Assembly (NCBI GenBank): GCA_022496805.1
Contig: CM040085.1
Coordinates: 33,509,811-33,573,810, forward strand
Direction: 5' to 3'
DNA length: 64,000 nucleotides
From: Pohlia nutans
Lineage: Eukaryota > Streptophyta > Bryopsida > Bryales > Mniaceae
Shown here: in pieces, positions 3,550 to 62,043 of the stretch
Layout: every line of letters starts with the position of its first letter
Position numbering within the stretch: the first letter of the stretch is position 1
Program-made: the position numbers and the translations under genes
Notes under the pieces: generated by a model
Databases searched by the model: none
What the model saw: the letters and a program-made list of their open reading frames with translations, nothing else
What the model was told of the DNA's origin: nothing

Positions 3550-4042
3550 TTAACTCTTATACGTCAAAAAATCCCCACGGGCTTGTTTTGAGAGAATAAT
3601 CAAGAAAAAAGTGGATTTTCTCAACCAATATTGAAATGGATTGGTGCTTTGAAAAGGTGATGAAAAAGCGAGGCTTGATTTAGCAATTACGCCTGTTTTA
3701 GTAAATTGTACATTCCAAGGAAATTGGAAAGAGAATTGGTGGGAGGGAGGGGAGGGAGTTAGGCAGTTTGAGATCTTGATGGATACCAAAGCTGCCAGCG
3801 CTGTTCAACAGTGTTTATTTATTTATTTTTAAAATTTAAAATTCAGAATTGCAGAGCAGGAATCTCATTGTATTTCTAAATTTTTTTTTGGAGTGACATT
3901 GTTCACTCCATTCACTATTCATAAAGGATTTGAAAAGTTCTCATTGGTTGTTCACGTTACTCAAGGGCCTACTGTTGGGGGCAGCTCTCTTAATTTTTTT
4001 CATTCCTTTGGGTTGCCCGTCTAGGACCCTATTGATGTTTAA
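3550..4042. mobile_element. TTAA-type element A1
   Basis: The left end is TTAA CTCTTATACGTC (3550-). The right end reads GGACCCTATTGATGTTTAA and runs directly into element B1. The body is clearly homologous to the copy at 34041-34618 (shared segments around AAATGGATTGGTGCTTTG and GATGAAAAAGCGAGGC). The subterminal segment CCCCACGGGCTTG forms part of a small hairpin. It is non-coding. Confidence 0.75.
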
Positions 4043-4594
4043 CCCCTAAGTGACCAAATGACCATTTTATGGTTGTTGCCCTTTTTTACGGGCTGTACAA
4101 GATGAAAAAAAAATTAAAAATACTTATATAAAAAATAAAAATATATTTTCAAATAGGAAATCAAGTCTACTTTTCAACCCAATTGAATCATGTCAATCCA
4201 AGTTAAACTCCACCAAGGAGAATTTTTCAAAAACCCTAAACCTCAATATTGTCACTTCTATAAAACTTACTATTTTGTGAAAGTAATGATGTTTTCTCCT
4301 TTGAAATTTTTTCCATTGATCGTTTTAGAATACAATGTCTAGTTTTATCCAATCATACCAAATTTCAAATTCTAAAAATAAAAATTGTAATTTTGGTGAA
4401 TATTCAACAATAATTTTTTTTTAAATTCATTAAATGAGTATTTAAAACTTTTTTGAAAGTTTGACTGTATAGATAATTACTAAACATCATGCTTCTCATT
4501 TTCTCTTTCTGACCAAACTTCATCGAAGTCACAGAAGTAACATTTTATAACACATCTAAGTTTTGCCCTTACCCCTCTGTCATTTACGGGTTAA
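4039..4594. mobile_element. TTAA-type element B1 (inverted copy of B2)
   Basis: TTAA at 4039-4042 and 4591-4594 flank the element. The left end CCCCTAAGTGACC matches the reverse complement of the right end of B2 (6051-6593), and the bodies match over their whole length in opposite orientation. ACCATTTTATGGT at 4061-4073 is a subterminal hairpin. The left TTAA coincides with the TTAA inside the right terminus of A1. Confidence 0.75.
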
Positions 4595-4807
4595 TACATG
4601 CATCACTGAGTTCACAGTATTTGTTACTTTTGAGAGATTTGGAATTGAATTCTAGTGCCAAGAGTGGTTCATGATCACCAGAGGGAATTAGCTTTGTACA
4701 CAAGCTGGAATTATGTTTGAAATTGTTCAGTTTCAAATGGGCGTTTGAAACCGCTTTAGTTGTTAGTAGACAGCCTTTTTTTGGAAACGTAAAACCTCAG
4801 AAAAATA

Positions 4808-5492
4808 CTCCCTCTGTTCCAGAACGATTGTCCAGTGTGATGTTTTTTTTTATCCCCTAAAGGACCACAACTATCTTTCTCTCCAAACACTCAAAAGCTA
4901 CCTAAAAGTACTCCTTTTCAGAAAAAAGTATATAGTTTTTTATCTAAAATCTTTTTGACCAATTCAACCGTAGGATATTTCAACCAATTTGAATTTATTA
5001 GCACTTATAAATTTTGAACCATTCAAGGTTCTTCAATAATAAGATTATAAGCTGACTGAACTTGGAAAATCAGCCTCAGACCTTTAGGGGTTACGATAAG
5101 TTGGTAAGTGAAAAAAATTAGCGTTCATGTCTGCTTCCTTGCAACTCTAAATAGCAAGTATAAGTGATGGAAAAGATACTAAAATATTAGCAACAAGAGT
5201 TAAAAAAATGATCACAAGCAACTCTCCTGTTGAATCACCTGTTGTGGATACTATTATTAAAATAATCAGATAGTCTAATATAATATTTTTGTTGGAGACC
5301 GAAAAACAATTCCACTGCACTAAAGAAATACATTGTTTGGATATTGTGTGCAAAAGTTATGAAGGATCAAAAATTTATTAATAGATGTATCACAGTGGCA
5401 AATATTGTAGATAAATCTACCACATTCCTCACTGGACATTTTGGAACAAAATTATAAGCTCAACTGGGACAGTCAATCTTGAACAGAGGGAA
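4808..5492. mobile_element. Stowaway-like (Tc1/mariner) MITE
   Basis: The left end is TA/CTCCCTCTGTTCCAGAAC at 4806 and the right end is GAACAGAGGGAA/TA at 5493. CTCCCTCYGTTCC is the textbook Stowaway terminus and the TA duplication is present on both sides. The inner part has further inverted similarity (GTCCAGTG and CACTGGAC). It is 685 bp and AT-rich, with no transposase frame. The end motif is repeated just after it at 5500-5508. Confidence 0.75.
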
Positions 5493-5688
5493 TATAAACA
5501 GAGGGAATGTAGATACGAGATTTCAAATGAATGTACTTTCCGAATGCACCAATTTTGAAATTACACCAATTAATCTAACGAATTCATCCATAAGGCATTG
5601 TGAATTTAGTGTGCCGAAAAGTTTCATGATTTAATTAAAACCGGTTAATTACTAGCCTAGCTGACCATCAAGAAAAGACCGTGCACTC

Positions 5689-6604
5689 TTAACCCTTAAA
5701 AGGACAGAGTAACCTCGAGGGGCTTAGTTTTGAAAGAATAATATGAAAAACTTCAGAAATAGTGAATTAAAAAATCCAAGGAGTGGTTTGTTCGAAAGGT
5801 AACGAGCATGCGAAGAGAGATTCTCTGCGATGAGCACAAAGACATTTCGGTATGGGATGGATTGTCGCGGGCTCAAGCAAGGAGAAGAACGGGCAAGTTG
5901 TGATGAGACATGGGCAAGCTGCGATGAGGTATAGGCTTGAGACATTCCGATGCCCAAATTAAAGGGGGGGGGGGGGGGCAAGGATGCCCGGGCATACATT
6001 GTAGCTTATATTCCTTTGGGTTGCCCCCCCTTATACCCTATGTCCTTTAACCCCTAAAAGTCTGAGGGGTATTGAACAAAACATAGATGTGTTATAATAT
6101 GTGCCTTTCATATGTTTAATGAAGTTTGGTTCAATAGACAAAATGTAGGGCATCATCTCTACAAATTATCTGTACGATCAAACTTCCAAAAATAACTTTA
6201 AATATTTTTTTAATGAATTTAAAAGCATTATCCTTCAAAAATTTGTATAAATTATAGTTTTCACTTTTAGAGTTTGAAATTTAGCATGATTGGTCAAAGT
6301 TGGTTTATCTATTGTAAACTTCAAAAAAGCAAAAGAAATCATAGAGGGAACATCATTACTTTTCCCAAATAGCAAATTTTATAACACTAAGACAATGTTG
6401 AGGTGATCCACTTTGAAAAATTCTCCCGGGTGGAGTTTAGCTTGGATTGACATAATTCAAATTGCATTGGAAAGTAGACTTGATGTAGTATTTTTAAGTA
6501 TTTTTGTTTTTTCAAAAACATATATTTTTAAAATTTGGGCAGCCCGTTAAATTTGGGCAGCGATCAGAAAATGGTCATTTGAGCGTTTAGGGGTTAAAGG
6601 TTAA
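5689..6604. mobile_element. TTAA-type element A2, interrupted by B2
   Basis: TTAA CCCTTAAAAGGACA starts at 5689. The right terminus is split: ATGTCC TTTAA ends at 6050 and AAGGTTAA resumes at 6596. Removing B2 plus one TTAA gives ATGTCCTTTAAAGGTTAA, which mirrors the left end. The element contains an uninterrupted run of 15 G at 5964-5978. Confidence 0.75.
6047..6597. mobile_element. TTAA-type element B2, nested in A2
   Basis: TTAA at 6047-6050 and 6594-6597 flank 543 bp. The ends are CCCCTAAAAGTC and GAGCGTTTAGGGG. It is homologous to B1 (inverted) and to the damaged copy at 50295. It sits exactly in the TTAA inside the right terminus of A2, giving a clean target-site duplication. Confidence 0.85.
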
Positions 6605-7433
6605 CCCTTTACTACCCAACCTTGTTTTTCAAAAACCTCATATTTTTTATGTTTTTTTCTTTAAACTCTCTCTCTCTTGAAATTAGGGATGTTATTAATA
6701 GAATTCAACAGTAAAAATAGAAGCATAGCTTAATCAAACAAGTGTTGGTTAAACCTTGGTAAAATCGGACCATTGGATTGGAAGATCATATTGTGTTTTA
6801 GAACTGTACAATGCACACTCAAAATGAGAATGATTTTGGAGGGTGTGTGACTTCAAAGTTAACTAGAATTTGAGTTAAATTTTCTAAAATGAAAGTGAAG
6901 ACACTCAACAATGATCTATGTCAACACCTCTCCATTGCAATCTTTCATGTAAAGAACGGACTCACACATAATCATTGTGAATTTTATAAGTGAGAGTGAC
7001 TTATCTGTATACGGTTTAGGACATAATTTTATACGTTAAAAAAATGAAAAGACTTGGTACATTGATCAAGATCTAAATACATACACTAATGGAACATGCA
7101 CAAGAGAACATAATCCAAAGATATAAAACAAGATAACAAACTTCCAAACACAAGAAGTACCGCATAGTACATGTGTTGTATTTGTTTATATTTGCTGTAT
7201 TTTGAGGAATTTGCAGTATCTTGGTGTTTTGTAGATAGGTGTTTTGATAGCTTCACAGCTTCAATTTATAAAATAAAAAATCAGAAGTATGTGCAAAAAT
7301 CAAAAGATGTGTGAGATGAAGTCCCACATCTTAACTTCAAACATTGATGCTTGTTATAGAGCAGATCTTACAGTAAGTTGCAAAAACATGCCTCTGCAAC
7401 CACAATGTGGTCGTGTGGGCTGTAAAGGGTTAA
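6601..7433. mobile_element. TTAA-type element C1
   Basis: TTAA CCCTTTACTACCC at 6601 and GTAAAGGG TTAA ending at 7433 bound 825 bp. It matches C2 at 20525-21316 over most of its length. The subterminal palindrome ACCACAATGTGGT at 7399-7411 is conserved in both copies. It shares its left TTAA with the right flank of A2. Confidence 0.85.
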
Positions 7434-7523
7434 GTACTACCATTTCCTTTCTCCCTGTAATTTGATTCAACTGGTGCGAGAACTGGTGTCACGGACTAAA
7501 CAGGTTCATGAGCTCACAGAACC

Positions 7524-8072
7524 TTAACCCTTTCAGGCGCCTGCGTCCAGAATCTGGACGCTAGATGAGTTTGAGTCGCTCTATTTATGTAGGTATGATG
7601 ATGTTTTTCATCCATCCAGTTTTTCGTTTATTCTTGTGCTAGTTGAATATCATTTGAACGGTATGGATCTTCAAAATAAGATAATGTGAATTTTTGAAAA
7701 ATTACAAAAGTGATTTATGTCAAGTTTTAATCTTAGTTCAAAAAGAGAGACCTTAAAAATGATTTTTCATAATAAGTAGAATCAAATAATGGAAACCACA
7801 CCATCTAGTAGTGCATGTTATTCCAATTTCATTACAATATTTTTAAATTTTTTTGTGTTAATTTTGGATTTTTAATTGAATTTCAAGAGAAAACCTTGCA
7901 AAATTACTTTAAAAATATCAATAATAAATATGATGAATCCAACCGTACAGATGCTATCTTCACATTGACATTTACAACTTTGTTTTGTACATCAACTCCA
8001 TTTTCGTTTTTCATCAACCATTTTATAACAAGTCTTTAAAAACAGTGTTGAATCGGGACGTTAAAGGGTTAA
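7524..8072. mobile_element. TTAA-type element H1
   Basis: TTAA CCCTTTCAGGCG at 7524 and GACGTTAAAGGG TTAA ending at 8072 bound 541 bp. GCGTCCAGAATCTGGACGC at 7543-7561 is a perfect 19-bp subterminal palindrome. Homologous copies are at 44321-44852 and, inverted, at about 12662-13158. Confidence 0.85.
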
Positions 8073-8727: not shown

Positions 8728-8787
8728 TGGGGCAGAGGCACCAAAGAGCAATTACAAACAATGATGTTGTTATCCCAAATACAACAT

Positions 8788-9573: not shown

Positions 9574-9930
9574 TTAACCCTTAAACGTCAAGAGGGCCTG
9601 GGTGGGGCAGCCCGGAAGGCATCTAAATTTTCGGAGGCGAAAAAAAAAAAAAAAAACAAAAAAAAAGAAAAAAAAAAAAGAAGAAAAAACGGCTCTGCTG
9701 GCCAGCAGTGTTGCGGCACTGTAGCACTGCGGTACTTTTCAAGAAACGACCTTTGCTGCCCAACCTCAACTCCTGTTCATTTAGATAATTTTGATTGCTT
9801 GTCAGTAACTCCACAATCTCCCAAATGAGGCGCAAATTTGCAATCTAGATAGCTTTTTCAGTAGCTTTCCAACGCACCAATCCTCGCTTGATTTGGTTGA
9901 GAAAATTTTGCTTTGACGTTTAAGGGTTCA
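9574..9930. mobile_element. TTAA-type element A4
   Basis: TTAA CCCTTAAACGTCAAG at 9574 and TTGACGTTTAAGGG TTCA ending at 9930 bound 349 bp. The left end matches A5 (48586) and the inverted right end of A3. The inner part has an A-rich tract at 9640-9687. The right TTAA has changed to TTCA. Confidence 0.85.
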
Positions 9931-9931
9931 G

Positions 9932-10223
9932 GTAGACATGCCAATGACCACAATATTCAAATCCTTCCCCACGACAATGTAGAAACTTACACCATCTCAA
10001 ATTTTGAAAGATTGTGGTATGTCAAGTTGGGATTCACCATGAAAAGAATCACACTCAAAATTGTTTTGTACAATAACTTTTATTTCACGTCAAATACATT
10101 GGGTATGGTTTTTAATGGAAAATTACTTGGAGCCCTTCACCACACAGCGTGCGGTAATTGGGCGGTACGGTACATTTCTATTAGAATTGTGCGGTGAAAC
10201 TTTGCAGTCATTGGCATGTCTAC
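9932..10223. mobile_element. inverted-repeat element with 17-bp termini
   Basis: The perfect 17-bp inverted termini are GTAGACATGCCAATGAC at 9932 and its complement ending at 10223. The 292-bp body includes a local inverted pair (AAATTTTGAAAG region). It abuts A4. A 94-codon frame crosses it but resembles no protein I know. Confidence 0.6.
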
Positions 10224-10292
10224 TATAAATCATGGATTTTAATTTTCAGATTATGATATTTATGGTTAATCAAGTGAGAACAACAGCTCAAC

Positions 10293-10520
10293 TGAACCCC
10301 TGAACATCACTAGGGCTCCAAATGTATACCACCGTATATTTTATCATATGAACCATCTCATATATTGAAATATGACAATATATTCAAATATGTTGTACAC
10401 TCAAATACAATAGTCGGTAGTTAAATATGTTGAGTGTATGTGGTGAAATTCGACAACAATCACATATTTGTTTCCAAAAATGCATGACTAGAGAGGGCCT
10501 TTGGGACGTTTAAGGATTAA
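10293..10520. mobile_element. short TTAA-type element P
   Basis: The left end is TGAA CCCCTGAACATC and the right end is GGGACGTTTAAGGA TTAA. They are inverted to one another and follow the terminus of the other elements. The length is 220 bp and it is a single copy here. Confidence 0.6.
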
Positions 10521-14555: not shown

Positions 14556-15461
14556 AAGTTCAACAATGCGAGAAGACCCAAGATTTACTCCGTGGCTTGA
14601 CCTCAGTCAGTTGTGCACTAAACAGTAACATTTGAGTAAGACTCGCAGCAGGTTTCTTATTCCGGCACAAGAAAATACAAACGTTGTTTTGTTTTCGTTC
14701 AAGGAAAGGTATAAAAACCGTTTAGCAGCTTACAGGATCAAGGATACATGTAAATCGAGTCACGAGCTGATCAGACAAAGCATCTTGAAGCGGGATTTGG
14801 AGGCTCAACGGTAGTGACGACGTCATAGCAAGTGACAAGCATTGAGTCAAAAGACGTGGCTCCTTTCTCGATAACTGCTGTCCCTTTGCGGTGGTTGTAT
14901 ATTCCCTGTCCAGTGACGGATCGATCGATAGAGTGTCTGAGCATGTACAGTCCAACACTCTACTAACACCTGGGCAGTGCCTTCGATGTAGGTGACTAGC
15001 TTTCTCTTGCAATCAGCTTCTTCAACTGCAGTGAATCCAGACATTCAATCATTATCGTACCATTCTCTTCATCATTTGTGGACCCTACTTACAGTGAGCT
15101 CTCGGACTGTCGGCTTTTCGATCTCCGGAGTCTATCATGCCGCAAGATCAACGTCGATCAGGCCAACAGCAAGTAGTGAAGCAGATCGACCAGACTATTG
15201 CCCTAGTAGATCACCAACAGTAAGTAGTGAAGCCGATCAATAAATTACTGTAGGCCCTTTTTCAGAACAAAACCCATAATGTCTGATCCTTGTTGCTTCA
15301 CCTGCTGCATAATATTCAGCTTCGGCGCTTGATTGTGCAATTTAGGGACGCTGTCTTGCTGAATCTAGCAGTCAAGATTTGTAGTCAAGCGACGTATGGT
15401 TGTCATTCTTACCGCAATTGAAGCAAGAGTGCGGTACTGCTGGAGCTCTAAAGATCGAGAG
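14556..15461. other. upstream region of the dirigent gene
   Basis: Base composition is balanced and no exon could be supported. A motif AGTAGTGAAGCMGATC occurs twice (about 15172 and 15223). The promoter of the dirigent gene should lie in the right part, but I see no clear TATA box. Confidence 0.4.
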
Positions 15462-16034
15462 ATGGCGAGGTGGAGATTCATGGTTATGGCATGTTACGTG
15501 ATGAGTTTGATGTTGTTATTGAGAGTGGAAGGAATGCAAGAAGGTCCGAGCAGCCTGGAGTTCTACGTGCACAATCCGGGGCTGTTCACGGCGTTCCCGG
15601 CGCCGCCCGTGCTGGCCATGAAGGGCGAGTCCAGGGTGCGGCGATCCCTGCGGAGCTTCAAGAGCCGTATCATCACGTTCGACAACGTGATCACGGGAAA
15701 CGCCGAGAATTCGTCGCCCGTGCTGGGCCGCGCGCACGGCATCCGCGTGGTGGACAAGGTGGGCGACGGGCCGCTGGCGTTCACGTGGCTCTTCACCGCC
15801 AGCTTCAACGCGTCGTCTTCGAGTTCCGGTTCCGGTTTAGGGTTCAGTGGCACGCTCAGTTTCCAGGGCACCACGTTCAACTTCCCCTCGTCGGAATTCA
15901 GCGACGTCACCGTCACGGGCGGCACCGGCAGCTTCCGATTCGCGCGCGGCTACGCCACGTTCACCAATTTCTACAAGGCGGACGAGATTTCCACTCTAGA
16001 AGGCCAACATTTCCAAGTCTTCCTCCGTTACTAA
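15462..16034 (+). CDS. dirigent protein (secreted)
   Basis: A 190-residue single-exon protein. The family guides the stereochemistry of phenoxy-radical coupling in lignan and related synthesis, in the apoplast, and has no catalytic site of its own. The start MARWRFMVMACYVMSLMLLL is a signal peptide. LEFYVHNP fits the first strand motif, ITFDNVITGN and SPVLGRAHGIRV fit the middle, and TVTGGTGSFRFARGYATF is the diagnostic C-terminal motif. Length fits the family (about 180-190). The longer frame opening at 15396 adds 22 residues ahead of the signal peptide and is unlikely. A Ser/Gly-rich insert SSSSSGSGLG lies near residue 130. The third-position GC is far above that of the flanks. Which lignan is made cannot be said. 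Confidence 0.9.
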   Translation: MARWRFMVMACYVMSLMLLLRVEGMQEGPSSLEFYVHNPGLFTAFPAPPVLAMKGESRVRRSLRSFKSRIITFDNVITGNAENSSPVLGRAHGIRVVDKVGDGPLAFTWLFTASFNASSSSSGSGLGFSGTLSFQGTTFNFPSSEFSDVTVTGGTGSFRFARGYATFTNFYKADEISTLEGQHFQVFLRY

Positions 16035-17526: not shown

Positions 17527-17783
17527 TTAACCCCTAAGTGTCTAAAACACCCAATACGGCCATCTGCATCACTGATCTTTGCACAAGAGTGGCATTTTCT
17601 CATTTTACCTCCAGTCGGTTTTTTTTATTGCAATACATCATTTTAAAGCTCTTGTTCTATACTACATGATTAACAATGTTGATTGTGTCAAATTGCAATC
17701 ATTTTCACACAAACAAATGATTTGTAGGAGGGTCTCAATTTTCCTACACTACAATAAATACACAGTGGACGCTTAGGGATTAA
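17527..17783. mobile_element. short TTAA-type element M2
   Basis: TTAA CCCCTAAGTGTC at 17527 and GGACGCTTAGGGA TTAA ending at 17783 bound 249 bp. Size and ends are like those of 28606-28838. Confidence 0.7.
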
Positions 17784-19952: not shown

Positions 19953-21323
19953 TTAACCCCTAAACTTCCAACCGACTAGAAAGTAGACAATGTACAAAAT
20001 CAAGCACAGTTTTCTCATCAGTCATTGACTTTTTGTAGTGTGGAATTTTTACTATATATTTTATGGGAAGTTAGCTTCATGTATGTGTGATCATCTGAAT
20101 TAGAAAGAGGACGATTTGTGAAAATTTTATGCCTCATTTCATGTTGTAGTCATTTACCAAAATTTCGAAGATTTCAGTGTAAAAGTGCTCTTAAAAAGTC
20201 AACTCATAAAATTAAGCAACCAAAAAATCTCCAAAAATCACTACATTTAGAGTATTACATTTCAACCAATCACAACAAATTTCATGTACAAATTTTCAAT
20301 ATCTTATTTGTAATCAAATTACAAATTAAAGAATTTTGAATTTCAAGTTTCAAATTTTATACAAAAGTATTGGTAATAGAAATCGTAGATACAACCAGAT
20401 GGATAGAATCTAAAATTCATAATCTACAACTTTTATTTATACATCAAGTTCAAAATATCCCTCTAGATTGCATTTTATGATGCATCTTTGCAAAACTGCC
20501 GAATTTGAAGAGGGGTGAGGACGTTTAACCCTTTACCGCTTTGGGTATTGTAGCAGGGTTCACTGGTTTTCACTGGGTTTTTCCAATATGATTGATACTG
20601 CCAGAAATAGAATGGATTAAATTAGAAAGTAACCGTACAATTGTATTCTCAATTGGAGTGCAAACATTTTGCCAAAATTAAAGAATCATCCAATGGTGGG
20701 ATTGGAAGATCATAGAGTATGTCTTTGAACCGTAAATTGCACACTCAAAAATGAGATTTTGGAGGGTGTGTGACTTCAAAGTTAAATAGAATTTGGATTA
20801 AATTTTATAAAATGAAAGTAAAGATGTTGAGCAATGACCTATGTCAACACCTCTATGTTGCAATGTTTCATGTTAAGAACAAAGTCACATATAATTATTG
20901 TGAATTTTATAAGTGAGAGTGACTTATCCATGTACGGTTTAGGACAAAAATTTATACGTTAAAATATGAAAGGACTTAGTACATGGATCAAGATCGGAAT
21001 ACATACACTAATGGAACATGAACAAGAGAACACAATCCAAAAAATAAAAAAGATAACAAACTTCCAAACACAAGAAATACCGCATAGTACATGTGTTGTA
21101 TTTGTAAGTATTTACAGTATTTTTGCGTTTTGTTCATAGGTATTTTGATAGTTGCACAACTCCAAATTGAAATTTTCTTTTTCTAAAAGATGTATATTAT
21201 ACCGCTCATCATCTGAACTTTACAATTCAAAATCCAATTCTTCACGGATTCTGCGTTATTCGCGTTTTCGACTCAGCAGAGACCACAATGTGGTTGCTTG
21301 AGCACTAAAGGGTTAAGGGTTAA
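19953..21323. mobile_element. TTAA-type element D1, interrupted by C2
   Basis: TTAA CCCCTAAACTTCC starts at 19953. The right terminus is split, GGACG TTTAA at 20528 and TTAAGGG TTAA at 21313-21323. Removing C2 and one TTAA restores GGACGTTTAAGGGTTAA. It is homologous to 32550-33147 and 56238-56810. The subterminal hairpin is CTAGAAAGTAG at 19976-19986. Confidence 0.85.
20525..21316. mobile_element. TTAA-type element C2, nested in D1
   Basis: TTAA CCCTTTACCGC at 20525 and CACTAAAGGG TTAA ending at 21316 bound 784 bp, homologous to C1. The palindrome ACCACAATGTGGT recurs at 21282-21294. Both flanking TTAA copies derive from the TTAA in the D1 right terminus. Confidence 0.9.
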
Positions 21324-21926: not shown

Positions 21927-24900
21927 TCAATTATCTTGAAATGGAGTGAGCGGTTTTTCCCAGACAGCGGAGAAGTAGACCTCGTTGCGGAGCTTGTCCG
22001 TCTTGGGAGTGGAGGTCCACATGTGCACCTTGTAGCGCAGGCGCTTGAAGTAGAAGAGATACTCGGCGAGTTCCTCTTTGTGGCAGAAGAATCGATCCAG
22101 CCACAGTAAGCCGCCGGGACGCAGCACGCGGTCGAAATCGAACAGGATGAAGTCCAGCAGCTGGAGATCGACCCACGCGTCGAGAAACAGCGTGGTGTGC
22201 ACAATGTCCAGCGTGTTGTCGAAGAACGGCAAGCGCTGGTTGATGGAGATGTAGAGCGGGATCAAGCCCCGGAGCGCTATCGTCTCGCTGAACGGCGCGC
22301 CCAGGTTCAGCGTCGTGGAGACGATGGTGACGTCCTGCTCCTGCCGGGGTGCAGCATTCACGATCAATGGTCAATAGCGCGTTCAAAATTAATCCTTAAA
22401 GGACATATGCTTTCCTGATTCCACACCCAAAATCTTTTTTAAACTCCATTTTAACCATGATTCTCTTTCTAATTTACTTTGGTTCTATTCTAAAGAAGTA
22501 TAGATCCCTCAAAGGTGCCCGGTTTGGCATTTAATAAACCCCATTTGGTGCAACGGAGTAGAAGTTATGAGCAAGAATCTCCCAAAATACTATCAAGTCT
22601 GTGGGGCTTGCATTGTCCTTTAAGTGTTAAGGACTCCTGACAAGTGCTTAAACAATGAAATATTTTAGTGCTTACTATTTAAGCTCTTCTTAGCCCTTAG
22701 AGCATCCGTACCCATGCACACTAAAGTTGACTCACTAAAATTATTCATCTACATTTGAAGAGCCCTTGAATTTACACTCCCCTATCCTTGAACACTCATC
22801 AACCACCAAAAGTGCACATCAAAATTATAGTCAATGGACCAATCATAAGTAGAATGTAGGATATAGTCAACTAAACTTAGATTTGAAGAGCCATTTCTTA
22901 ACACGCTAGGATTGAGGATTAAGAGACATTTTTGAAGGGCTTTAGCATTTTTCATCTACTTATTACTTGTGTCAAACACTAGGAGGGCATGGATGCGGAT
23001 GCTCTTATTAAAGACTGGTTACAAGCACTCTTCTTTTCCTTCTTTTTTTGGGTACAAATCAAATGGATTCATTTGCAATGTTACAAGCACTCTTCAACTG
23101 GTTCTTAATCCGTACCTAAAATTGAAATTTACCAAAAAAAAACAAGTGGACAATGTAAAATAACAATAGGATTGTTTTGGTATACAATATTGTTACTAAT
23201 TTAGTAGTAAAAGGTACTTTTTGAATGAATCTAAGTAAAATTTAAGCACTCGTTACACTTTGTATGAGACCTTTTGTACAAACCTTCATGCGCGCCGCGA
23301 ACGTGCCCGTGCCCATGCTGTAGTCCAGGCCGATGCGAATCTCGTCGGGCTTGAGCGCCAGCACGTAGGCGATGAGATACTCCGCGTCGGAGGAGTTCGG
23401 GACCACCCAGCGCTGCTTCTCCAGCGTCTGCAGGTCGAAGCACGGGCTGCACTTGAAGAACTTCTTGCGGTGCTCATAGTCCGCCAGGCACGAGAAGTTC
23501 TGGCAGAAGTAATTCTCCCACCGGATGTTCTCGTCCGCTGGAATCGCCCACAGCGACTCCCGCGCCGGCAGCGGCTGCTTGTAGAGCGTCGGGCCGCGCG
23601 CGCGGCACCGCCGCCGTGGCAGCGGCTCGCACCCACGGATTATGAGCTGCTGCCCTATCACCCAGTCGTCGCGACAAAGCTCCCCGATGTCGTATTCCAT
23701 GTACTTCTCCAGGAGCGCTTTGTTGGCCACGCACGCGTGGCCGATGGCGCCGTACGTCGCGTTCACGCCCATGAAATTCTTCAACCCTCCTCGCGTCTCC
23801 CGCACCTGCACCGTCCTCGCATGCATTTAGCTCAGGCCCATCCGCCATATCCCAAACACCCTAATCGAACCCCGCGGTGGACACATAACCTCGTATTCGT
23901 TAAAATGGCGGAATGATGTCAAATCCAATCCAATCCTTGCTTAGAGAGGTCGACTGAAAACGACTGGATTTCTAGAGTTTGACTGATCTAATTATCCAAT
24001 CCGAGCTCGACCAAAAATGATTTGTAGAGCTGGACTAAAACCTCAAAACGAATTCAATCCTAGTTTTTACATAACATTCAGTTTTTCTAGTGGCTCTGCC
24101 TTGCCCCACAGTCTAAGATAGTGTAGCATATTCCACACTCATCAAGACCAAATCAGTAGCCAACTGGACAGGTGGAGTCCCAAGATGATGCATGAAGGAA
24201 AGACAAAGAGCATGAAGGCTACTGAATGTTATGTAGAACTCTTTAATTATGTCGTAATATAAATAGGACTTTGAAATATGCCAATTAGAATGATATGACC
24301 ACGCATTTGCAAAAGCAATGACAAACGGAATGAGATCGAGCTTCTTACCCTGATGTACTTGTTGATTTCTTCCTGGTCGAAAAAATCGTATGAGGGATCG
24401 GACAGCAAGTGATTCGGGGTCTCTGCGAGTGTGATCATCTCTTCAGGTTTCGACGCAACGTCAAAAGGTTTGCAAGGGTGAGTCTCGGATGATGAGCTGA
24501 GTCCCAGCTTATTCGACGTCGATTCTTGGAGTTCCTTGAGAATCGTCGCAATGCCGTCCAGTCCATTCGTGATTTCCAGCAGCACATTGTGATTGCGATT
24601 GGCGACATCCGCAGCAAGGGAGTTCGACACCACGCGGTTCGACGATTCCTGGATGGCTTGGAGCACCTTCGCCTGCATGTCGGTCACCTTGAGGGACAAG
24701 TACGCGACGTGCACAGCGGTGGTGTCGGTCGTCGTGGGCGAGGACGGCTGGATTTTGAAGAAAAGCCCGGAGATGAAAAGGAGCAGAAAGCCCGTGAAGA
24801 TGTAAACCCAGTTGGTCGCTGACCTGTGCGAGATCGACCTCCCCAATCGATAACCCCGCGGCGAGTTTTTGGAGATCGCGCAGTCACGCGGCGGCAGCAT

Positions 24901-26437: not shown

Positions 26438-27002
26438 TTAACCCCTAAAGGACCAAGTGTCCTAACTAGGACATTTCAATGTTCGGGTAGGTTCCCACGG
26501 TGTCAATTTTTATTTTTGTTTTTTGAAATAAATTATGGGAATTCGGTGTATCAATACAAAAATGGGGATCTATTTTATTTTTTTAATTCCGACTTTAAGT
26601 GGAAGTTATAGAGCAAAAGGGGTTTTTCTGGGGAGAATGGGCAGTGTGGGCAGGGCTCAAAATAAACCTCAGAAAATATTATTTTTCAACTTTAACCGTA
26701 GGATCTTGTTATAGATTACCAAGAGAGTGCATGGTAAAATTTTCATAGAATTTGGCCGTACAGATTGCAAGATTTTAGCGTTTGAAGTGAAAAGATGAAA
26801 TTGTAGTCGTTTTGGATATTTTTTGACCGTCTTTGAATTCATGGGAAAAATTGTTAAATTGGTCAAAAAAATTCTTAAATTTTATTTAAATGTTTGATTT
26901 GGTATTTTCTATGAAGAGGAAAAAAATATTCACAAGAAAATGAATAGAAAGAGCTGAAAATGATACTCAAGAACGGGAAAACTGCAGTCTTCTAGGGGTT
27001 AA
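26438..27002. mobile_element. TTAA-type element N
   Basis: TTAA CCCCTAAAGGACC at 26438 and GTCTTCTAGGGG TTAA ending at 27002 bound 557 bp. TGTCCTAACTAGGACA at 26458-26473 is a perfect subterminal palindrome. Single copy in this window. Confidence 0.75.
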
Positions 27003-28605: not shown

Positions 28606-28838
28606 TTAACCCCTAAACGTCCCACGGGGATAGTATATACGATGTCGTATGATTGGGATTTGCTACAAACAAGAAAATCTAAATTGGAATCTCAATAACT
28701 CACTAGAATCGCATTGATCTAAATTCCAACTTCTTTTTTGAACTGAAACCCATTAAAAGTGTGGATCCATTCCAAATACAACCAAAATACACCGTATTCT
28801 ACTGGCCGCAAAGGCACATTCAAACGTTTAGGGGTTAA
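28606..28838. mobile_element. short TTAA-type element M1
   Basis: TTAA CCCCTAAACGTCCC at 28606 and CAAACGTTTAGGGG TTAA ending at 28838 bound 225 bp. The ends are the cleanest of the whole group. CCCACGGGG is the subterminal hairpin. Confidence 0.85.
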
Positions 28839-30496: not shown

Positions 30497-31042
30497 TTAA
30501 CCCCTAAGGGTCCCTAGCTTTTTTGGGCTTAAAATCATCATTGCTTTTGATGTGTTATAGGTCTAAATGTAAGTGAGGTATAGAAATCTCAAATGTACAA
30601 TCTTGTAACATACATGTTGTAGATCATGTGGATCAAATTTGGGGTCATTTATCCCTAGAGATTGCAAGATCATAGTGTTTTAGTGCTAAAAAAGGATGCT
30701 GAAATTTTCCTAGCAACACAGTTAGAGGTGAAATTCGTTTTCAAAATTACTCAAATGAAAAAACTTTGAACTATAAAGTAATTCAAAATCGTCATATAAA
30801 CACATTGGTACCAAAAAATCCTCATGGAAAAATTTAATGTGCCCTAAAATGTCCTTGCAATGTCAAAAAGTTGCCCAAAAAGTGACTCATTTGAACCAAA
30901 AAGCAAAAAGTGTCCAAACTAGACCCGTGTACTAAAATGACTCCCAAAAATTCAAAACAACATGGATTGACATGAAAATTTTACCATGATATGTACCCCC
31001 AAAAACGTCCAAAATATGGACGTCGGGACGGTTAGGGGTTCA
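30497..31042. mobile_element. TTAA-type element K, nested
   Basis: TTAA CCCCTAAGGGTCC at 30497 and GGGACGGTTAGGGG TTCA ending at 31042 bound 538 bp. GTCCAAAATATGGAC at 31007-31021 is a perfect subterminal palindrome. Confidence 0.75.
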
Positions 31043-34040: not shown

Positions 34041-34308
34041 TTAATCCTTAAATGTCAAAAAAGTCCCAGGGGCTTGTTTTGAGAGAACAATGAAGGAAAA
34101 AGTGAATTCTCTCATCCAAAATTGAAATGGATTGGTGCTTTGGCAAGGTGATGAAAAAGCGAGGCTAAATTTAACATATATGCTTGTTTTAGTAAATTGT
34201 AGATTTCAAGGAAATTGGAAAGAGAATTGGTGGGGAGGGAGAGGAGTCGGGCAGTTTGAGATCTTGATGGATATCAAAGCTCCCAGCGCTTTGCAACAAT
34301 GTTTTTTT

Positions 34309-34386
<78 letters not shown>

Positions 34387-34618
34387 TTCAAATCTAGAAT
34401 TGCATAACTCACTGCAAAGTCGGAATCTCATTGTATTTTTAATTTTTAATTTTTTTTTGGAGTGAAACTGTTCACTCCATTCATTGTTCATAAAGGATTT
34501 GAGGAATTCTCATTGTTTTTTCACGTTATTCAAGGGGATACAGTTGGGAGCAACTCTCTTAATTTTTTTTATTCTTTTGGGCTACCCATCTAGGACCCTC
34601 TTGACGTTTAAAGGTTAA
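34041..34618. mobile_element. TTAA-type element A3 with an expanded TA tract
   Basis: TTAA TCCTTAAATGTC at 34041 and TTGACGTTTAAAGG TTAA ending at 34618 bound 570 bp, homologous to A1. A TA dinucleotide repeat of about 68 bp fills 34311-34378, where A1 has only a short AT-rich run. Confidence 0.85.
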
Positions 34619-35733: not shown

Positions 35734-38288
35734 TTAGTCAGACACTTCTTCATCACTTGGATACAGGAAATCAAAGTCAGAATCAGCATTAGAAGTAGCA
35801 TATACACTTCCTTCACTGATGTCATCGTCAACATCCTTCATGGGGTCTTCGTGATAGCCAAGAAACAAAGACGTATTTCTATAAAAAAGATCAGTATTAT
35901 ATAAGTCCCGCTTGTAATATTTTGAGTAAATGTTATTATATAACGGAGTGCCATCAATGATCACCTCTCGCAACCACGTCAAGCGGTCCAAATCTGGGAG
36001 CCAGGACAACTGCGAGCCCCTACACCACAACATTACCAATGATTCCACCTCTTCTATACCTGGAATGGATTCGATGCCCGTCTCCCCGATAGACAATCGC
36101 CGCAACCTTTTTAGTCGGCCTAAGTATGGAATTGTTTTGAGTTCTTTGCAGCAGATTATTCTCAAGTCAGTCAGAAACTGCAGTTCGCTCATGCTAGCAT
36201 GAACGGAGGCCAGCCGATGACACTGGATGAAACTGAGGTCCTGCAAACACCTTAAGTTTCCCAGATCGCCAGTAGTGACCAAGCAATGGCTCCAAGATAC
36301 GTGAAGTTTACACAACAGTTGGAAACATTCAACAAAGACAGGCATGTGTGGAATTCCGGTGGTTCTGAACTCCAAAGTTCGCAGAGATGTCACAAATTCC
36401 AATTCGGGAAGCAGATCAGAACATTGCTTCATCTCCAACCAACCAAGTTTCTTCAGTTGTTCCCACCCTGTCACTTATTTTAGGTTTGGACAGAGTTCAA
36501 AAGTGAGTGAGCGGAGGTTCGGCAAGCCAGACAACTGCGCTTCGGTCATTGAATAACACTCGAAAAAAGATAAAACTCTCAGTCCCTGGTGCAGAATGGA
36601 ACTCTCAAATATTGACCGTCCATCACGCCGTATGTTGAGGTGGATATCATGCCTAGGATTGTCTCGAACCGCCTTTGACGCAAAGTCTTGATATTTTCGT
36701 AGACTGTCGGTATATAGCCATTCGTTGAAGTCCATGACAAGGTTGCGCTCCCGAAGCTTGTGCAGCTGCAACAACCAAACCAGATGCTGAGCCAGGGGAA
36801 GATTGCGTTGCTTACTCGGTTGCTTACACTGTCATAACTCCGTTAGTTTCCCCACAGAAAGTTTAGAATTTTACCTGGAGTAGCACTGAATTCTCGTCTA
36901 TAAGTATTGAAGGACATAACACATGGCAAACAGGGCACCAGAGTTGGCACTCAAGGATTCACGGAATTCAAGTGCTTGGGAAAAATGACTTACACAGAAC
37001 ATAATTTCTTCAGAGTCTGCATCATGCACAACGGCAAGCCACCGACAGAACTCTTTGACCTCAGTATTACTCAGGAAGTTCTTGCAAAGTATACAATCAA
37101 GAAGTACGCGTTTCAACAATTCTGGCAACCCATTGAATCCAGGTACAGCCTGCAAATGCATACAGAAAAACAAGGTGTAACCTTCTGTAAATTGAAACAA
37201 CCTGCAATTGCCACAGTGCTAAGCTTTGCGTTCATCATGCCAGGACACGCTTGAAATTAGACACAAGAATAGAAGAAAACGAGAATACAAACAATTAATT
37301 ATCTTAAATTGTGCAAATCATGTTGGACCTAACTAGGTAAATGGTCGCCCTAACTAGGTAAATACACCACCCCTTTTGACACATGAATGTTCACATTCTA
37401 TCTTTGTGACATATCTAGATATCTGGAGTTTAACCCAAGTGCGCAGACAACAGGGAAATTCAAATGAAAAGAATAGATCTAGAATGGAAGTGGAAATGGA
37501 TGGGTTAACTTTCGACTTACACGTTGGCGTATCCTACGTCTTCTTCTCCGCGGTGTTGGGGACTCTGATAATGGCACTGCTGGAGTAGCTTCAGGGAGCA
37601 GATTAGAAGAAGGAGCTTCATCAGGCATGGAGGAAGAAAAGAGCTGCCCCTGGCCGGGCCTACTACTCTGCGGCAGATAAGAAGGAGCTTCATCAGGCAT
37701 GGACGAAGGAAGGAGTTGGCCGGAGCCAGACCTCATACTCTGCGGCATATTAGGACCTTCATCAGGCATGGAAGAAAAAAGGAGTTGGCCGGAGCCAAAC
37801 CTCATACTCTGCGGCAGATTAGAAGGACCTTCATCAGCGAGTTGACCAGGCTGGCCGGAACGAGTCCTGCTCCTTGGTGGGCAAACCTTATCAATGATCT
37901 CGAACCAATTGCCCTCTAAAATCGTGTCCAATTTCAAACCACTCAACTCCTCCTTCGTAAGCTGAGGATACTCTCTCCCGTTTCTCGCACAATAGTCCTT
38001 GATCTTCCTATAGGATTTGATGAGAGTGTCCCACCTACGCCTGCATTGTTCGCTTGATTTCACTCCACAGATATTACCGAATCGGCCTTGGAACATTTCA
38101 GAGATTCTCTCCCAAGAGGTATACCGACTTCCTCTATCACGCACAGACTTTTCCTTACACTCCACCAAGAACGCCGTTTCATCGTCTGTCCAATTTGAGC
38201 CCCTGGCCCTCTTGTTAGGTTGTTCCGGGCAAAGAGTAGACTCAACTCGATCATTAGACATACCAAGATCGACGTCGGTGGTTCTCAT
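35734..38288 (-). pseudogene. trihelix plus LRR gene with an in-frame stop
   Basis: Three exons join in phase 0: 38288-37521, 37149-36994 and 36765-35734. Splice sites are canonical (GTAAGT/TTTGCAG and GTAAGT/GTTGCAG). Exon 1 encodes a trihelix (Myb/SANT-like) DNA-binding domain, GSNWTDDETAFLVECKEK to SSEQCRRRWDTLIKSYRKI, then near-repeats of SMPDEGPNMPQSMRSGSGQL. Exon 3 encodes about nine leucine-rich repeats of about 24 residues with Cys-rich ends, like plant NLR-type LRRs, and an acidic tail YPSDEEVSD. The stop TAA at 36477-36475 follows CPNLK, and the same frame continues VTGWEQLKKLGWLEMKQC. No NB-ARC domain is visible. Exon 1 may have an upstream exon: a TTTCCTAG acceptor lies at 38338. 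Two neighbouring genes instead of one fusion cannot be excluded. Confidence 0.6.
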
Positions 38289-38317
38289 TGGCACAAGGTC
38301 TCCATTTTCCTCCTCTT

Positions 38318-40468: not shown

Positions 40469-41201
40469 TTAACCCCTAAACGCCGCCCCAACCACAATCT
40501 AGCTTATGAATGGAACTGACTATTCAATTCCAACTGCTATATGGATGATTTCTATCCAATTTTTTTGTGAAGGATTTTGTTTGGTCATGCCACCTCTTCA
40601 AGTTAAATTCAAATCATTCAAGCTATTTTTAAATTTTATATGGGGTCCCAATTACAGAAAGAGTCGTAAAAATGGTTCACCCGGTGTAGCGTATTTTGAA
40701 TTTTTCTGCTTGTTCCGCTTAAACTGATTTTAGGCCATGAAAATGAGTTCTATTGCATTTGAGCTTAACTAAAAAAAATGAAGCTTGCCAAGCTTAGTTT
40801 CTACTCCACTTTGAATTTTTGAAAAACTTTGAAAATTGATTGTTTTATTGCAGTTACAAGTTCAGTGGGTATTACCAAGGTGCACCAAAAATTTCTAAAT
40901 TTAGATACACGGATGATTTTCATTAACTAAATCTTTCTTCATTTTAATTTACACCTTTGGTAAAACAATCAGAAATTTTGAGTACATTTTGTAATTGGTA
41001 TGAATTTTCTTTACAATCACTTCAAAAAGCCATAGTAATTTCAAATTTTCATCAAAATTTATGAAAAAATCATGATTTGTAGTAGACACATAGCTTCATC
41101 TACTAAAAATATAAAGTTCTTGTATTATTTTTAGTTGCAAAATTGAGTGTGGCAGATAAAACATGATTCCATGGTCATAGGCCTGATCTTTTGAGGGTTA
41201 A
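40469..41201. mobile_element. TTAA-type element E1
   Basis: TTAA CCCCTAAACGCCG at 40469 and GATCTTTTGAGGG TTAA ending at 41201 bound 725 bp. A full-length inverted homologue lies at about 56803-57541. Confidence 0.85.
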
Positions 41202-44182: not shown

Positions 44183-44856
44183 TTAACACTAGAAGAAAAG
44201 AGGGACTTGTACACTGAGCATGTTCACTCAGATGTGACCAAACTCACTCAAATGTGGCCAAATTCACTCAGAATCCCACTCCAGGCTGAGTGAACAAGTC
44301 CCTCTTTTCTTCTAGAGTAACCCTTTGACGCGACAAGGTCCGTATTCTGGACGTTGGATGATTTCTGATGCGTTCCTTCACCACGTATGGTGATGTTTTT
44401 CATCCATCTAAATTTCTCTTGGTTCTTGTGCTAGTTGACTACCATTTGGGTAGTATGGATCTTCAAATTAGGTGTTGTGTTTTATTTTTTAAATAACAAA
44501 AGTGGTCTATGACTCTATGTCAAGTTTCATTATGAGTTGAAAAAGTGAGAATTTTAAAATGATATTTGAATATGAGTAGAATCAAATTATGGAAATTATA
44601 CCATCTAATAGTGCATATTATTCCAAATTTATGACAATATTTTTTAATTATAAATTTTAATTTGAGATTTTTAATTGAATATTTTTTTTAAACCTTGAAA
44701 CTTTAATTAAAAAATATGATAAATCCAACCGTATACATGTAATTTATTCATTGAGATTTACAAATTTTCTTTGTATATCAACTCCATTTTGTGATTCATC
44801 AAACATTCATAACACATGTTTGAAATCGGTGGATCATCTGTACCTCAAAGGGTTAA
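44183..44856. mobile_element. TTAA-type element H2
   Basis: The body 44321-44852 is homologous to H1. The right end is ACCTCAAAGGG TTAA. The left TTAA (44183-44186) is separated from CCCTTTGACGCG (44321) by the CACTA-like insertion. Subterminal hairpin GTCCGTATTCTGGAC at about 44339-44353. Confidence 0.8.
44187..44317. mobile_element. 131-bp CACTA-like fold-back
   Basis: CACTAGAAGAAAAGAGGGAC at 44187 is mirrored by GTCCCTCTTTTCTTCTAGAG ending at 44317. TAA is duplicated outside (44184-44186 and 44318-44320). CACTA elements have a 3-bp duplication and CACTA ends; the right end has mutated to CTAGAG. Inside, CACTCA words repeat about six times. Confidence 0.65.
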
Positions 44857-48585: not shown

Positions 48586-48961
48586 TTAACCCTTAAACGT
48601 CAAGAGGGCCTGAATGGGGCAGCCCGGAAGGAATCTAAATTTTTTTAGGAAAAAAAAAAAAAAAAATTTGGCAAAAACGGCTCTGCAGTGCACTGCTGGC
48701 TAGCACTGTAGCACTGTAGCACTGCGGCACTGCTGAACTTCAGCTGCCCCAACCTCAAAACTTGTTCAATTTGATAACTTTGATTGCTTACCAACGATTC
48801 CACAATCTCTCAAATGAGGCGAAAATTTGGAATCTAGATCGCTTTTTCAGTAGCTTTCCAACGCAATAAGTCTCGCTTGATTTGGTTGAGAAATGAAACT
48901 TTTTCCTCAATTATTCCTTTATAACAAGCCCGTGGGGCTTGCTTTGACGTTTAAGGGTTAA
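48586..48961. mobile_element. TTAA-type element A5 (complete)
   Basis: TTAA CCCTTAAACGTCAAG at 48586 and CTTTGACGTTTAAGGG TTAA ending at 48961 bound 368 bp. It is the best preserved A-family copy. CAAGCCCGTGGGGCTTG at 48925-48941 is a subterminal hairpin with a 7-bp stem. Confidence 0.9.
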
Positions 48962-50294: not shown

Positions 50295-50790
50295 TTAACC
50301 CCTAAAAGCCTGAGGGGTATTGGAAAAAACACAGGTGTGTTATAATATGTATCTTCCATATGTTTGATGAAGTTTTGTTAATTGAAAAAATGTAGGGTAT
50401 CATCTCCACAAATTATCCATATAGCCAAGCTTCTAAAAAAGACTTTAGATATTTTTTTAATGAATTCAAAGCATTAACCTTTCAAAATTGTATAAATTAT
50501 AATTTTAACTTTTAAAGTTTAACATTTAGCATGATTAGTTTTAATTAGTTTATCTACTATAAACTTCAAAAAAGCAAAAGAAATGATGGAAGAGACATCC
50601 TCACTTTTTCTAAATAGCAAATTTTATAACACTAAAACAATGTTGTGGTGATCCACTTTGAAAAATTCTCCCAGTGTTGTTTAACTCGGATTGACATAAT
50701 TCAAAGTGCGTTGGAAAGTAGACTTAATGTAGTATTTTTAAATTAAAAAAAATTAAAAATTAAAATAAAATTTAGCAACCAAAAAATGAT
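50295..50790. mobile_element. TTAA-type element B3, right end lost
   Basis: TTAA CCCCTAAAAGCCTG at 50295 begins a body clearly homologous to B2. Similarity fades in AT-rich sequence near 50740-50790 and no right terminus is present. Confidence 0.7.
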
Positions 50791-57541: not shown

Positions 57542-57690
57542 CCCTTAAAGGGCATGGACTCAAATGGCGGGCAACTCGAAAGAACCAGATCAATATTTTC
57601 ACCCTATGGGCATTCGTGTCAAGGTTGCCCTAATGTTATAAGACTGTGAACCGTCGAGACGGTCCACTTTAGCGGTAACCCTTTACCGCA
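57538..57690. mobile_element. remnants of further TTAA-type elements
   Basis: TTAA CCCTTAAAGGGC starts at 57538 and GTAA CCCTTTACCGC occurs at about 57676; the latter equals the left end of family C (20525). Neither has a recognisable partner end. Confidence 0.4.
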
Positions 57691-57699
57691 AAGGTTTTG

Positions 57700-60560: not shown

Positions 60561-60639
60561 CATTTTGACCGGGCAACCGGTCAAAGTGCTCATAAAAATA
60601 TAATTTTTTTGAAAAAAAGGTCTCATGACGGGATCGTGA

Positions 60640-61620
60640 TAGGGCGGGGGCGATTGGGCGAGTTGGGTCGGCGGGCTCGGTAGGGTTGGGCCGGGTTGGT
60701 GAGGATCTGCTGGGGCTAACACAATGTCGAAGGATTCAAAAAATAAAATCTTCTCCCTACTCTTGACCTTCAGGGAGGTTTTTTCTCCAAAAAATAAACT
60801 ATTTGCTTCATTTGCATATGTGAATAATGTTCTTGAATTCTTGTTAAAATGCACATCATATTTCATTAATTTTATTTCTACACATTTGTATATTTATTCA
60901 AGTGGAAGAATGCAAAGTCCGAGAAACGTATGTTTAAAATATATATTAGTTACGTTTACACTAAAAATAAGCATAAAATAAACAAAGAGATGATTTTACA
61001 CAAAGGTTTTGGTCATTACACATCAATAAGCCTCAATCAAAGAGTTTTATTTTGAAAAATTAAATATCATGTGTGTCTAATGTCACTAACCTCTATTTTT
61101 GGGATTAGTGACGTTAGTGATACGTAGGCACTTTACTTTTAGAATATGTAGGCATTTTACTTCAAAGTAAATATCATGTGTCACTAACGACACTAATCCC
61201 AAAATAGAGGTTAGTGACGTTAGTGACACGTGATATTTAATTGTTCAAAATAAAACTCCTCGATTGAGGTTTATTGATGTGTAATGACAAAAAACTTTGT
61301 ATAAAATCATTTGGGATTTTAATAGACATTTTTGGGATTAAAATAGATGTTGTTGGGACTTTGCGTTTTTCCATTCGAATAAATATACAAATGCGTAGAA
61401 ATAAAATTAATGAAGTGTGATGTGCATTTTATGAGAAATTCAAGAACTCTAAACCGCCAACCCGGTCAACCCGATCCCTGCCAATCCCACCAACCCGGCC
61501 TAACCCACCGAGTCCATTGATCCGGCCCGACCCCGCCAACTTGGCCCAACAACGCCAACCCAGCCCAAGTGCCCAATCCCACCGACCCGGCCCAACCCCA
61601 CCAAGCCCTACTCTTGGCCG
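60640..61620. repeat. large inverted repeat, arms about 300-450 bp
   Basis: AATGCACATCATATTTCATT near 60848 is mirrored by AATGAAGTGTGATGTGCATT near 61410. The pairing extends inward through ATTTGTATATTTATTC, GCAAAGTCC, ACACATCAATAA and AAATATCA to a short spacer near 61130-61170, and outward, more weakly, into GC-rich GGGCCGGGTTGG-type sequence. No protein is encoded. The two arms are roughly 85-90 percent alike by eye. Confidence 0.75.
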
Positions 61621-61674
61621 CATGCTAAAACAGGTCCACACACATGCTCCGCTCAAGCCGGCCGGTCCGAAATT

Positions 61675-62043
61675 AGCTGCCCAAAAATATCCCTCACTTT
61701 CCCGATGCACTCTTTTAATTATCATGAGCTCCATAGTCCATCAAATTAGGTGCAAGTTAGGAATCTACTCTCGCATTTTCAATACCTTTCCAAAGCACCA
61801 ATCCTTATATTTTTTGGTTGAAAAAAGTAAAGTTTTCTCCTATATCCCTTGAAACTAAGCCCGAGGGGCTTAGTATTTCCTTTAAAGGCACTACTAGAAA
61901 ATCCAACTAATCTGTTGTTTCGGTCGCATTGACCGGGACACTTTTCTGTTGATTTGGTCAATTTTTGTTCAAATCAACAGAAAAGTGTCCCGGTCAACGT
62001 GACCGAATCAACAAATTAGTTGGATTCTCTAGTAGCGAGGTAA
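61675..62043. mobile_element. A-family remnant (A6) cut by a CACTA-like MITE
   Basis: The segment 61690-61880 resembles A5 (GCTGCCC, the CTTTCCAAAGCACCAAT region, AAGCCCGAGGGGCTTAG). Its right end TTCCTTTAAAGG/AGGTAATA is split by the insertion at 61889. The left end is lost. Confidence 0.5.
61889..62037. mobile_element. 149-bp CACTA-like fold-back
   Basis: CACTACTAGAAAATCCAAC at 61889 is mirrored by GTTGGATTCTCTAGTAGCG ending at 62037; AGG is duplicated outside (61886-61888 and 62038-62040). The arms pair almost completely around a short loop. CACTA ends plus a 3-bp duplication define the type. Confidence 0.85.

Follow-up and report, generated by a model that had tools for sequence, protein, structure and literature searches.

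The closest described systems to the elements reported here are piggyBac of Trichoplusia ni (structures 6x67/6x68) and piggyBat (9c0f), with which these elements share the TTAA target, the DDE_Tnp_1_7 core and the conserved acidic motifs. The ends of animal piggyBac elements likewise begin with CCC. We analysed a 64-kb stretch of DNA (the window) in which many short non-coding elements are bounded by TTAA and by a common CCCYTWAACG-type terminus, mirrored at the other end. We consider it very probable, on the joint evidence, that these are non-autonomous piggyBac elements moved in trans by transposases of several lineages, and that an extra domain associated with these transposases is probably N-terminal. 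The solved piggyBac and piggyBat chains have 594 and 578 amino acids, whereas the open frames around the DDE domain reach 884–1,104 codons in 7 of the 20 transposase loci sampled here, and a frame with 2 stops extends over 1,240 codons in another locus (L050; genomic loci and copies bear L numbers); the extra domain of ∼110 amino acids and a Gly/Arg-rich linker are further differences.

The presence of piggyBac in plants is already known. It is said to occur there (PMC3902484), according to a survey table PiggyBac is one of the superfamilies present in every taxonomic group studied (PMC4438587), a review lists it among seven superfamilies of angiosperm miniature inverted-repeat transposable elements (MITEs) (PMC10004981) and a table for grasses contains a single PiggyBac match of 75 bp (PMC8319324). 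The tables and passages concerned in the last three sources describe no autonomous plant piggyBac element. In the fern Ceratopteris richardii, PiggyBac is present in traces; the repeat table counts 1,230 elements totalling 122,417 bp, i.e. 0.00% of the assembly, and gives no ends or proteins (PMC6890710), whereas thousands of candidate copies as well as coding elements were found here. In the literature searched, mostly open papers, we met no account of piggyBac having expanded in ferns or in free-sporing plants of other kinds, nor of the abundance, the autonomous anatomy or the extra domain reported below.

Short elements with a common end design

Matches to TTAACCCYTWAACG, the search pattern for the TTAA-CCCYTWAACG end design, were counted on both strands. 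With up to two mismatches, 47 were found in the 64-kb window, against a mean of 1.65 in 100 dinucleotide shuffles (largest value 6), which bears out the shared and mirrored end design claimed in an earlier note on this DNA. A search for pairs of any sequence with TTAA on both sides and an inverted match of at least 8/10 gave 26 closed pairs (2–9 in 20 shuffles), a total that in itself is not special, being exceeded by those of some other 4-mers (TATA 37, ATAT 55). Ten of these 26, however, start with CC at both ends, compared with 0–1 in the 20 shuffles and 0–1 for ten other 4-mers. A looser pairing scan led to 19 non-overlapping closed elements (9,014 bp), from which 10293-10520 and 50295-50522 were dropped as doubtful. 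The pairing 9574-10520 was also rejected, the right end at 9930 (TTCA) matching the terminal inverted repeat (TIR) better (10/10), and one element end was placed at 21316 instead of 21323 (a shift of 7 bp).

The 17 elements kept represent 12 sequence families, and the longest stop-free stretch in each is of 43–106 codons, in agreement with the earlier description of at least 11 unrelated non-coding families. The earlier figure of about 25 elements covering about 12 kb was not reproduced, since 17–19 closed elements covering about 9 kb were obtained; ends without a partner and truncated copies are also present in the window (e.g. at 50295, 56238 and 57538). The TIRs begin with CC(C/T), a piggyBac trait that is also found in the autonomous elements described below. 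Like MITEs, the elements are short, non-coding and present in many copies, and they have ends in common with an autonomous element (L049). No Rfam match was obtained in the window at gathering threshold.

Copies in the genome and target sites

Six window elements served as queries against the 698-Mb genome, and for each the best 40 candidates were scored (three queries list one further match); the candidates are unconfirmed copies and the counts are lower bounds. The scored copies of all six queries cover at least 91% of the query, are mostly full length and are 87–100% identical to it. They are the best 40 of 3,507 candidates for 28606-28838 (93–100% identity), of 3,322 for 48586-48961 (93–100%), of 7,067 for 6047-6597 (90–100%), of 6,171 for 20525-21316 (87–100%), of 4,665 for 7524-8072 (93–100%) and of 2,443 for 26438-27002 (92–100%). 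The first four are the elements that had been singled out as the cleanest; all of them are real, 40 copies having been scored for each.

Among 41 copies from three families whose flanks were read, 38 display identical 4-bp flanks (36 TTAA and 2 TTAG), so that full copies with TTAA flanks are indeed found across the genome, as anticipated. For 28606-28838, the 21 copies (the window's own included) comprise 17 with TTAA/TTAA, L048 being counted among these after its letters were read, two with TTAG/TTAG and two with an altered left flank (L042 and L047). TTAA is present on both sides in 9 of 10 flank-read copies of the 7524-8072 family and in 10 of 10 of the 26438-27002 family. The bases beyond the 4-bp flank are not conserved. 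The two TTAG/TTAG copies (L034 and L035) agree in their outside sequence and thus correspond to one duplicated insertion. Because TTAG is found on both sides of this insertion, and also of the window element 32550-33147, the flanking 4 bp are indicated to be duplicated target and not element sequence.

Inspection by eye revealed copies abutted by another element-like end, with a single TTAA in common, on the right side (L031, L043, L044, L047, L068, L070 and L071) or on the left side (L029, L058, L071 and L072). By a rough estimate, the rate of such sharing between neighbours may be compatible with random TTAA targeting. Special targeting was not adopted as a reading because element ends account for a fair share of the TTAA sites of the window (47 end matches; 430 TTAA).

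Autonomous elements and their transposases

The PF13843 profile (DDE_Tnp_1_7, the piggyBac transposase) was searched against the genome; the best 116 of 1,305 candidates were scored and all are over the curated cut-off. Twenty of the top 23 loci were fetched with 4.2 kb on each side. In 13 of these 20 loci, a TTAA-CC left end and a GG-TTAA right end close around the transposase, and 4 of 6 further loci, picked by the extra domain, are closed by such ends as well (L049, L051, L052 and L053). The autonomous elements delimited in this way are of 5.0–6.7 kb. Alignments between copies run exactly from TTAA to TTAA for L009/L012 (95.6% identity over 5.63 kb) and L015/L028 (97.5% identity, 5.5–5.6 kb), and from TTAA to TTAA within one base for L010/L019 (99.4% identity, 5.04 kb) and L015/L018 (89.7% identity). 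Because L010 and L019 are near-identical over their full length and both retain an uninterrupted 1,004-codon frame, this element appears to have been active recently. A connection with the window is provided by L049, a 5,332-bp element with a transposase, which bears TTAA-CCCCTAAACGTCTG at both ends and the exact CCCCTAAACG termini of the window. The earlier assignment to the piggyBac superfamily, and the DDE_Tnp_1_7 domain foreseen between matching ends, are thereby supported by the TTAA duplications and by the PF13843 transposases that these ends enclose.

The L010 transposase aligns with the solved piggyBat (9c0f, E 1e-26) and piggyBac (6x67, E 8e-26) proteins, and the acidic motifs of the catalytic core are kept when it is compared with 6x67 and 9c0f (vtiDes, cmDNff and gvDvaDq in L010); these motifs correspond to the catalytic aspartates of piggyBac (D268, D346 and D447). 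As regards the cysteine-rich zinc domain that piggyBac transposases have at the C-terminus, a Cys/His pattern was noticed there by eye, and the Pfam matches are sub-threshold (E 0.007–0.012, in 2 of 5 frames scanned). Two loci, in coordinates oriented as the transposase, look as if they were sitting inside another inverted-repeat element: in L013 (29-7915), inverted repeats matching at 20/20 positions and located at TTAA sites flank the transposase on both sides, and in L020 (1844-7566) the transposase is flanked by repeats matching at 18–19/20, the letters of which are partly similar to those of L013 (AGTCACNTTG...).

A tree was constructed from 50 sequences (our 20 transposases and 30 of 98 database matches) by a quick method, with support values from the Shimodaira–Hasegawa-like approximate likelihood ratio test (SH-aLRT) only. 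The 98 matches had been obtained with the shorter frame of L016; the long open reading frame (ORF) of L010, used as a query of the protein database with search words taken from its first 500 residues, which are mostly linker, gave no match at E 0.001. All 20 sampled transposases and 18 unnamed database proteins form one clade (SH-aLRT 100), apart from the named animal proteins. The 18 clade-mates come from JGI, ENA and lgn sources, presumably metagenomes. PGBD4-like and animal piggyBac proteins (Aplysia, Oculina, Lineus, Leptopilina), which have the DDE_Tnp_1_7 domain and 31–34% identity to the L016 transposase, fall outside this clade. Six groups of transposases are apparent in the tree: L023/L027; L015/L018/L028; L010/L019/L024; L009/L011/L012/L013/L017; L014/L016/L020/L021/L022/L025; and L026 alone. 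Their termini differ somewhat from one lineage to another (CCCTTAACTG, CCCTCAAGCG, CCCCTCAACG, CCCCTAACTG and CCCTTTAAGG, among others). The notion that a single transposase moves all window elements, which the earlier note had put forward, is not supported: one transposase for all families was rejected in view of at least six deep lineages with somewhat different termini.

We then have, for individual window elements, similarities to particular autonomous loci. The first 16 bp of 28606-28838 are common to both ends of L049 (E 0.004), and the left end of 40469-41201 has 17 bp in common with the right end of L010/L019/L024 (E 0.003). In 32550-33147, a stretch of 270 bp is 81% identical to a part of the L014 element located beyond the 3' end of the transposase ORF, and a further 26 bp are 92% identical to the left end of L022. 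This element may have arisen from the L014/L022 transposase lineage by deletion and rearrangement; it is also possible that the similarity to L014 is due to a repeat nested in L014. Comparison with the 17 delimited autonomous elements showed that two window elements match only a copy nested in L051; an 84% copy of 4039-4594 is nested in that locus.

The mechanism that we propose is that the window elements are MITE-like members of the piggyBac superfamily, which would be cut and pasted in trans, as are known piggyBac elements, by the transposases of scattered autonomous elements. These transposases would recognise the common CCCYTWAACG-type terminus, insert at TTAA and duplicate it. As there are several transposase lineages, the lineage responsible may vary from one window family to another.

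A conserved domain upstream of the transposase

A conserved domain of ∼110 residues, common across lineages (alignments of 8, then 11 sequences), was found in frames located upstream of the transposases. A profile of this domain matches 14 of the 20 loci, or 6 of 12 once the 8 loci from which the profile was built are excluded, and it has no match in the window. At least four of the six sampled transposase lineages possess the domain. The genome was also searched with the L028 copy as a query, and the best 150 of 581 candidates were scored. Between these 150 domain matches and the 116 scored transposase matches (the best of 581 and of 1,305 candidates, respectively), 19 pairs lie within 10 kb of each other, compared with a mean of 0.485 (maximum 3) when positions are shifted. 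The domain is upstream and on the same strand in 19 of 19 pairs, and in 16 of them it is at a distance of 1.4–2.05 kb; the 19 pairs include four known carriers (L015, L018, L023 and L028), and a further two seem to stem from the duplication of a single locus. Conversely, in 6 of the 6 loci picked by the extra domain and long open frames, a transposase is located downstream.

The ratio of non-synonymous to synonymous substitution rates (dN/dS) of the domain is 0.20, 0.17 and 0.15 in three close pairs (one sequence being common to two of them) and 0.07–0.22 in three distant pairs, for which dS is near saturation; it was not computable for two pairs. The domain is under purifying selection. Comparison with Pfam gave nothing above threshold (the best value, E 0.057, came from one of 8 members), a PDB sequence search gave no match (best E 1.4) and Foldseek found no fold match (best E 2.3) with a low-confidence model (predicted local distance difference test score, pLDDT, of 49). 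This model is helical, and the domain is predicted to be all-alpha, but a pLDDT of 49 is too uncertain to interpret. Six unnamed database proteins also contain the domain. It is apparently undescribed: no description was found in the literature searched, mostly open papers, in which a domain that has no name is not searchable by name. We propose that it might help to bind the transposon ends or to target chromatin.

Alternative explanations

Several observations count against the explanation by non-autonomous piggyBac elements and multi-lineage transposases. The flank-read copies are among the top matches to queries that contain TTAA, which biases them towards intact flanks. One end is lacking in 7 of the 20 transposase loci (the left end in 5 of them, the right end in 2), and the ends of autonomous loci were sought with the window's own pattern, a procedure that leans towards the expected answer; boundaries were also judged, in three lineages, by where copies cease to align, which is less open to this bias, as are the TTAG pairs. 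The matches of 16–17 bp that connect window elements with autonomous ones are little more than the shared end consensus at E 0.003–0.004, and for 12 of the 17 window elements a comparison with the 17 delimited autonomous elements gave nothing at E 0.01. Finally, the profile did not find the extra domain in L010, L019, L024, L025, L026 and L027; the L025 stretch begins downstream of the position where L016 carries the domain, and the L027 transposase pairs with a domain match 7.6 kb upstream, beyond the fetched locus. One could suppose that the short elements resemble piggyBac by chance and are members of a different TIR superfamily whose target sites are A/T-rich, such as PIF/Harbinger (TWA) or Tc1/mariner (TA). 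TTAA includes both TA and TAA, and plants commonly carry Tourist and Stowaway MITEs in their genomes. A discussion of the target sites of these MITEs is found in PMC10004981. We regard this explanation as highly improbable for the families examined, as a duplication of 2 or 3 bp does not explain TTAG on both sides (in the one duplicated insertion and in 32550-33147) and as the matching termini enclose PF13843 transposases. It could also be argued that the short elements survive only as dead relics and that the autonomous ones are fossils without activity, in keeping with the many transposase frames that contain stops or are broken and with the scored copies of the six families, which are mostly 2–13% off the query. 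This too appears quite unlikely, although less so, in view of the L010/L019 pair, nearly identical over the whole element with both long frames open, and of the 7524-8072 family, in which 35 of the best 40 copies (query included) are 96–100% identical to the query.

A separate question is whether the extra domain and the transposase constitute a single long protein, interrupted in many copies by introns or frameshifts, or two. The former is, in our opinion, likely; the transposase would then be very long and would probably start with this domain, which a long linker rich in Gly, Arg and Ser would connect to the DDE domain. In the latter case, to which we attribute a distinctly lower but not negligible probability, the domain would be a second, separate protein of a two-gene piggyBac element. 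PIF/Harbinger elements, with their ORF1 + transposase arrangement, offer a parallel, being plant DNA transposons in which the transposase is accompanied by a second conserved protein module; they differ in transposase superfamily and target site, and the domain found here is without a Pfam match above threshold. A two-protein organization would accommodate the finding that the two domains do not share a frame in most loci (for which an intron or a frameshift could also be responsible), that comparisons of L018 with L015 and of L011 with L012 detect no codon-phase constraint between the two conserved parts, and that by eye a short ORF in L014, L016 and L020 ends in a basic motif just before the stop. 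It is less easily reconciled with L050, where a single 1,240-codon frame holds both parts (2 stops, versus 62 and 84 in the other frames), or with L049, where an 814-codon stop-free frame extends from the extra domain to ..ICEETNRF, which by eye is like a DDE start although the DDE profile gave no score. In addition, in five loci selected because their frames are long, the DDE frame continues through the linker for 407–625 codons with 0 stops; shuffling of the linkers (300 times per locus) gave means of 11.8–26.3 stops, and none of the 300 shuffles was stop-free. At L016 (∼1257-3946), a gap of ∼2.7 kb lies between a linker-like frame upstream and the DDE frame, and the letters on the right side of the gap resemble splice signals by eye; L025 is similar to L016 in this gap and 98% identical to it over much of the stretch.

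Inventory of the window and nature of the host

Among the 17 elements, 28606-28838 is the type example, with a TIR of 10/10 (CCCCTAAACG). An equally regular TIR (10/10, CCCTTAAACG) is found in 48586-48961, to the family of which belong 9574-9930 (77% to 48586-48961; TIR 10/10, right flank TTCA) and, by similarity, 34041-34618 (TTAA both sides, TIR 7/10). The family of 6047-6597 (TTAA both sides, TIR 9/10) includes 4039-4594 (TTAA both sides, TIR 8/10; 73.5% to 6047-6597), and that of 20525-21316 (TTAA both sides, TIR 8/10) includes 6601-7433 (TTAA both sides, TIR 8/10; 86.5% over 431 bp). A young family is represented by 7524-8072 (TTAA both sides) and by 44317-44856 (flanks GTAA/TTAA, TIR 9/10; 76% to 7524-8072). 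TTAA is also present on both sides of 17527-17783 (TIR 8/10), 22389-22630 (TIR 8/10, ends TCC/CAC), 26438-27002 and 40469-41201 (TIR 7/10). The right flank of 30497-31042 is TTCA (TIR 8/10), the target site of 4850-5094 is degraded (TTAT/TTAC) with a TIR of 10/10 (CCCCTAAAGG), and the possible rearranged L014/L022-lineage derivative at 32550-33147 has, between its TTAG flanks, a TIR of 9/10. The window also contains, at 60866-61410, a TTAA-flanked inverted-repeat element of 545 bp that is not of the CCC type, its ends matching at 19/20 positions (TTTTATTTCTACRCATTTGT).

Three host ORFs were recognized in the window: a Dirigent-like ORF at 15396-16034 (PF03018, E 1e-15), a trihelix Myb/SANT-like ORF at 37479-38294 on the minus strand and, at 35734-36474 on the minus strand, a leucine-rich repeat (LRR) ORF that matches LRR_14 and R13L1-type repeats. 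A land-plant host is supported by these predicted Dirigent, trihelix-Myb and LRR genes, and the placing of piggyBac-like elements in a land plant is upheld, for its land-plant part, by gene content. Two radial-spoke genes (PF04712) were found in the genome, exon by exon (G000:C7:7311173-7315788 and G000:C8:6819054-6823127). Such genes imply flagellate sperm, hence a bryophyte, lycophyte, fern, cycad or ginkgo and not a flowering plant or conifer. Because they are present, an angiosperm or conifer is unlikely and the host is probably free-sporing.

Implications

piggyBac is a workhorse of genome engineering that is known mainly from animals. A single plant genome is found here to contain 1,305 candidate transposase loci (116 of them scored), at least six transposase lineages, a near-identical full-length pair of elements and an accessory domain. 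We tentatively suggest, as an idea with slightly less than an even chance of being correct, that a distinct piggyBac clade has been very successful in some free-sporing plants. Its transposase would have about double the usual length, and the undescribed helical domain at the N-terminus would allow several lineages to use a common end design and to mobilize dozens of non-autonomous families. The elements described here make testable both the existence of a natural plant-adapted piggyBac and the role that an added domain may have in end recognition or targeting.

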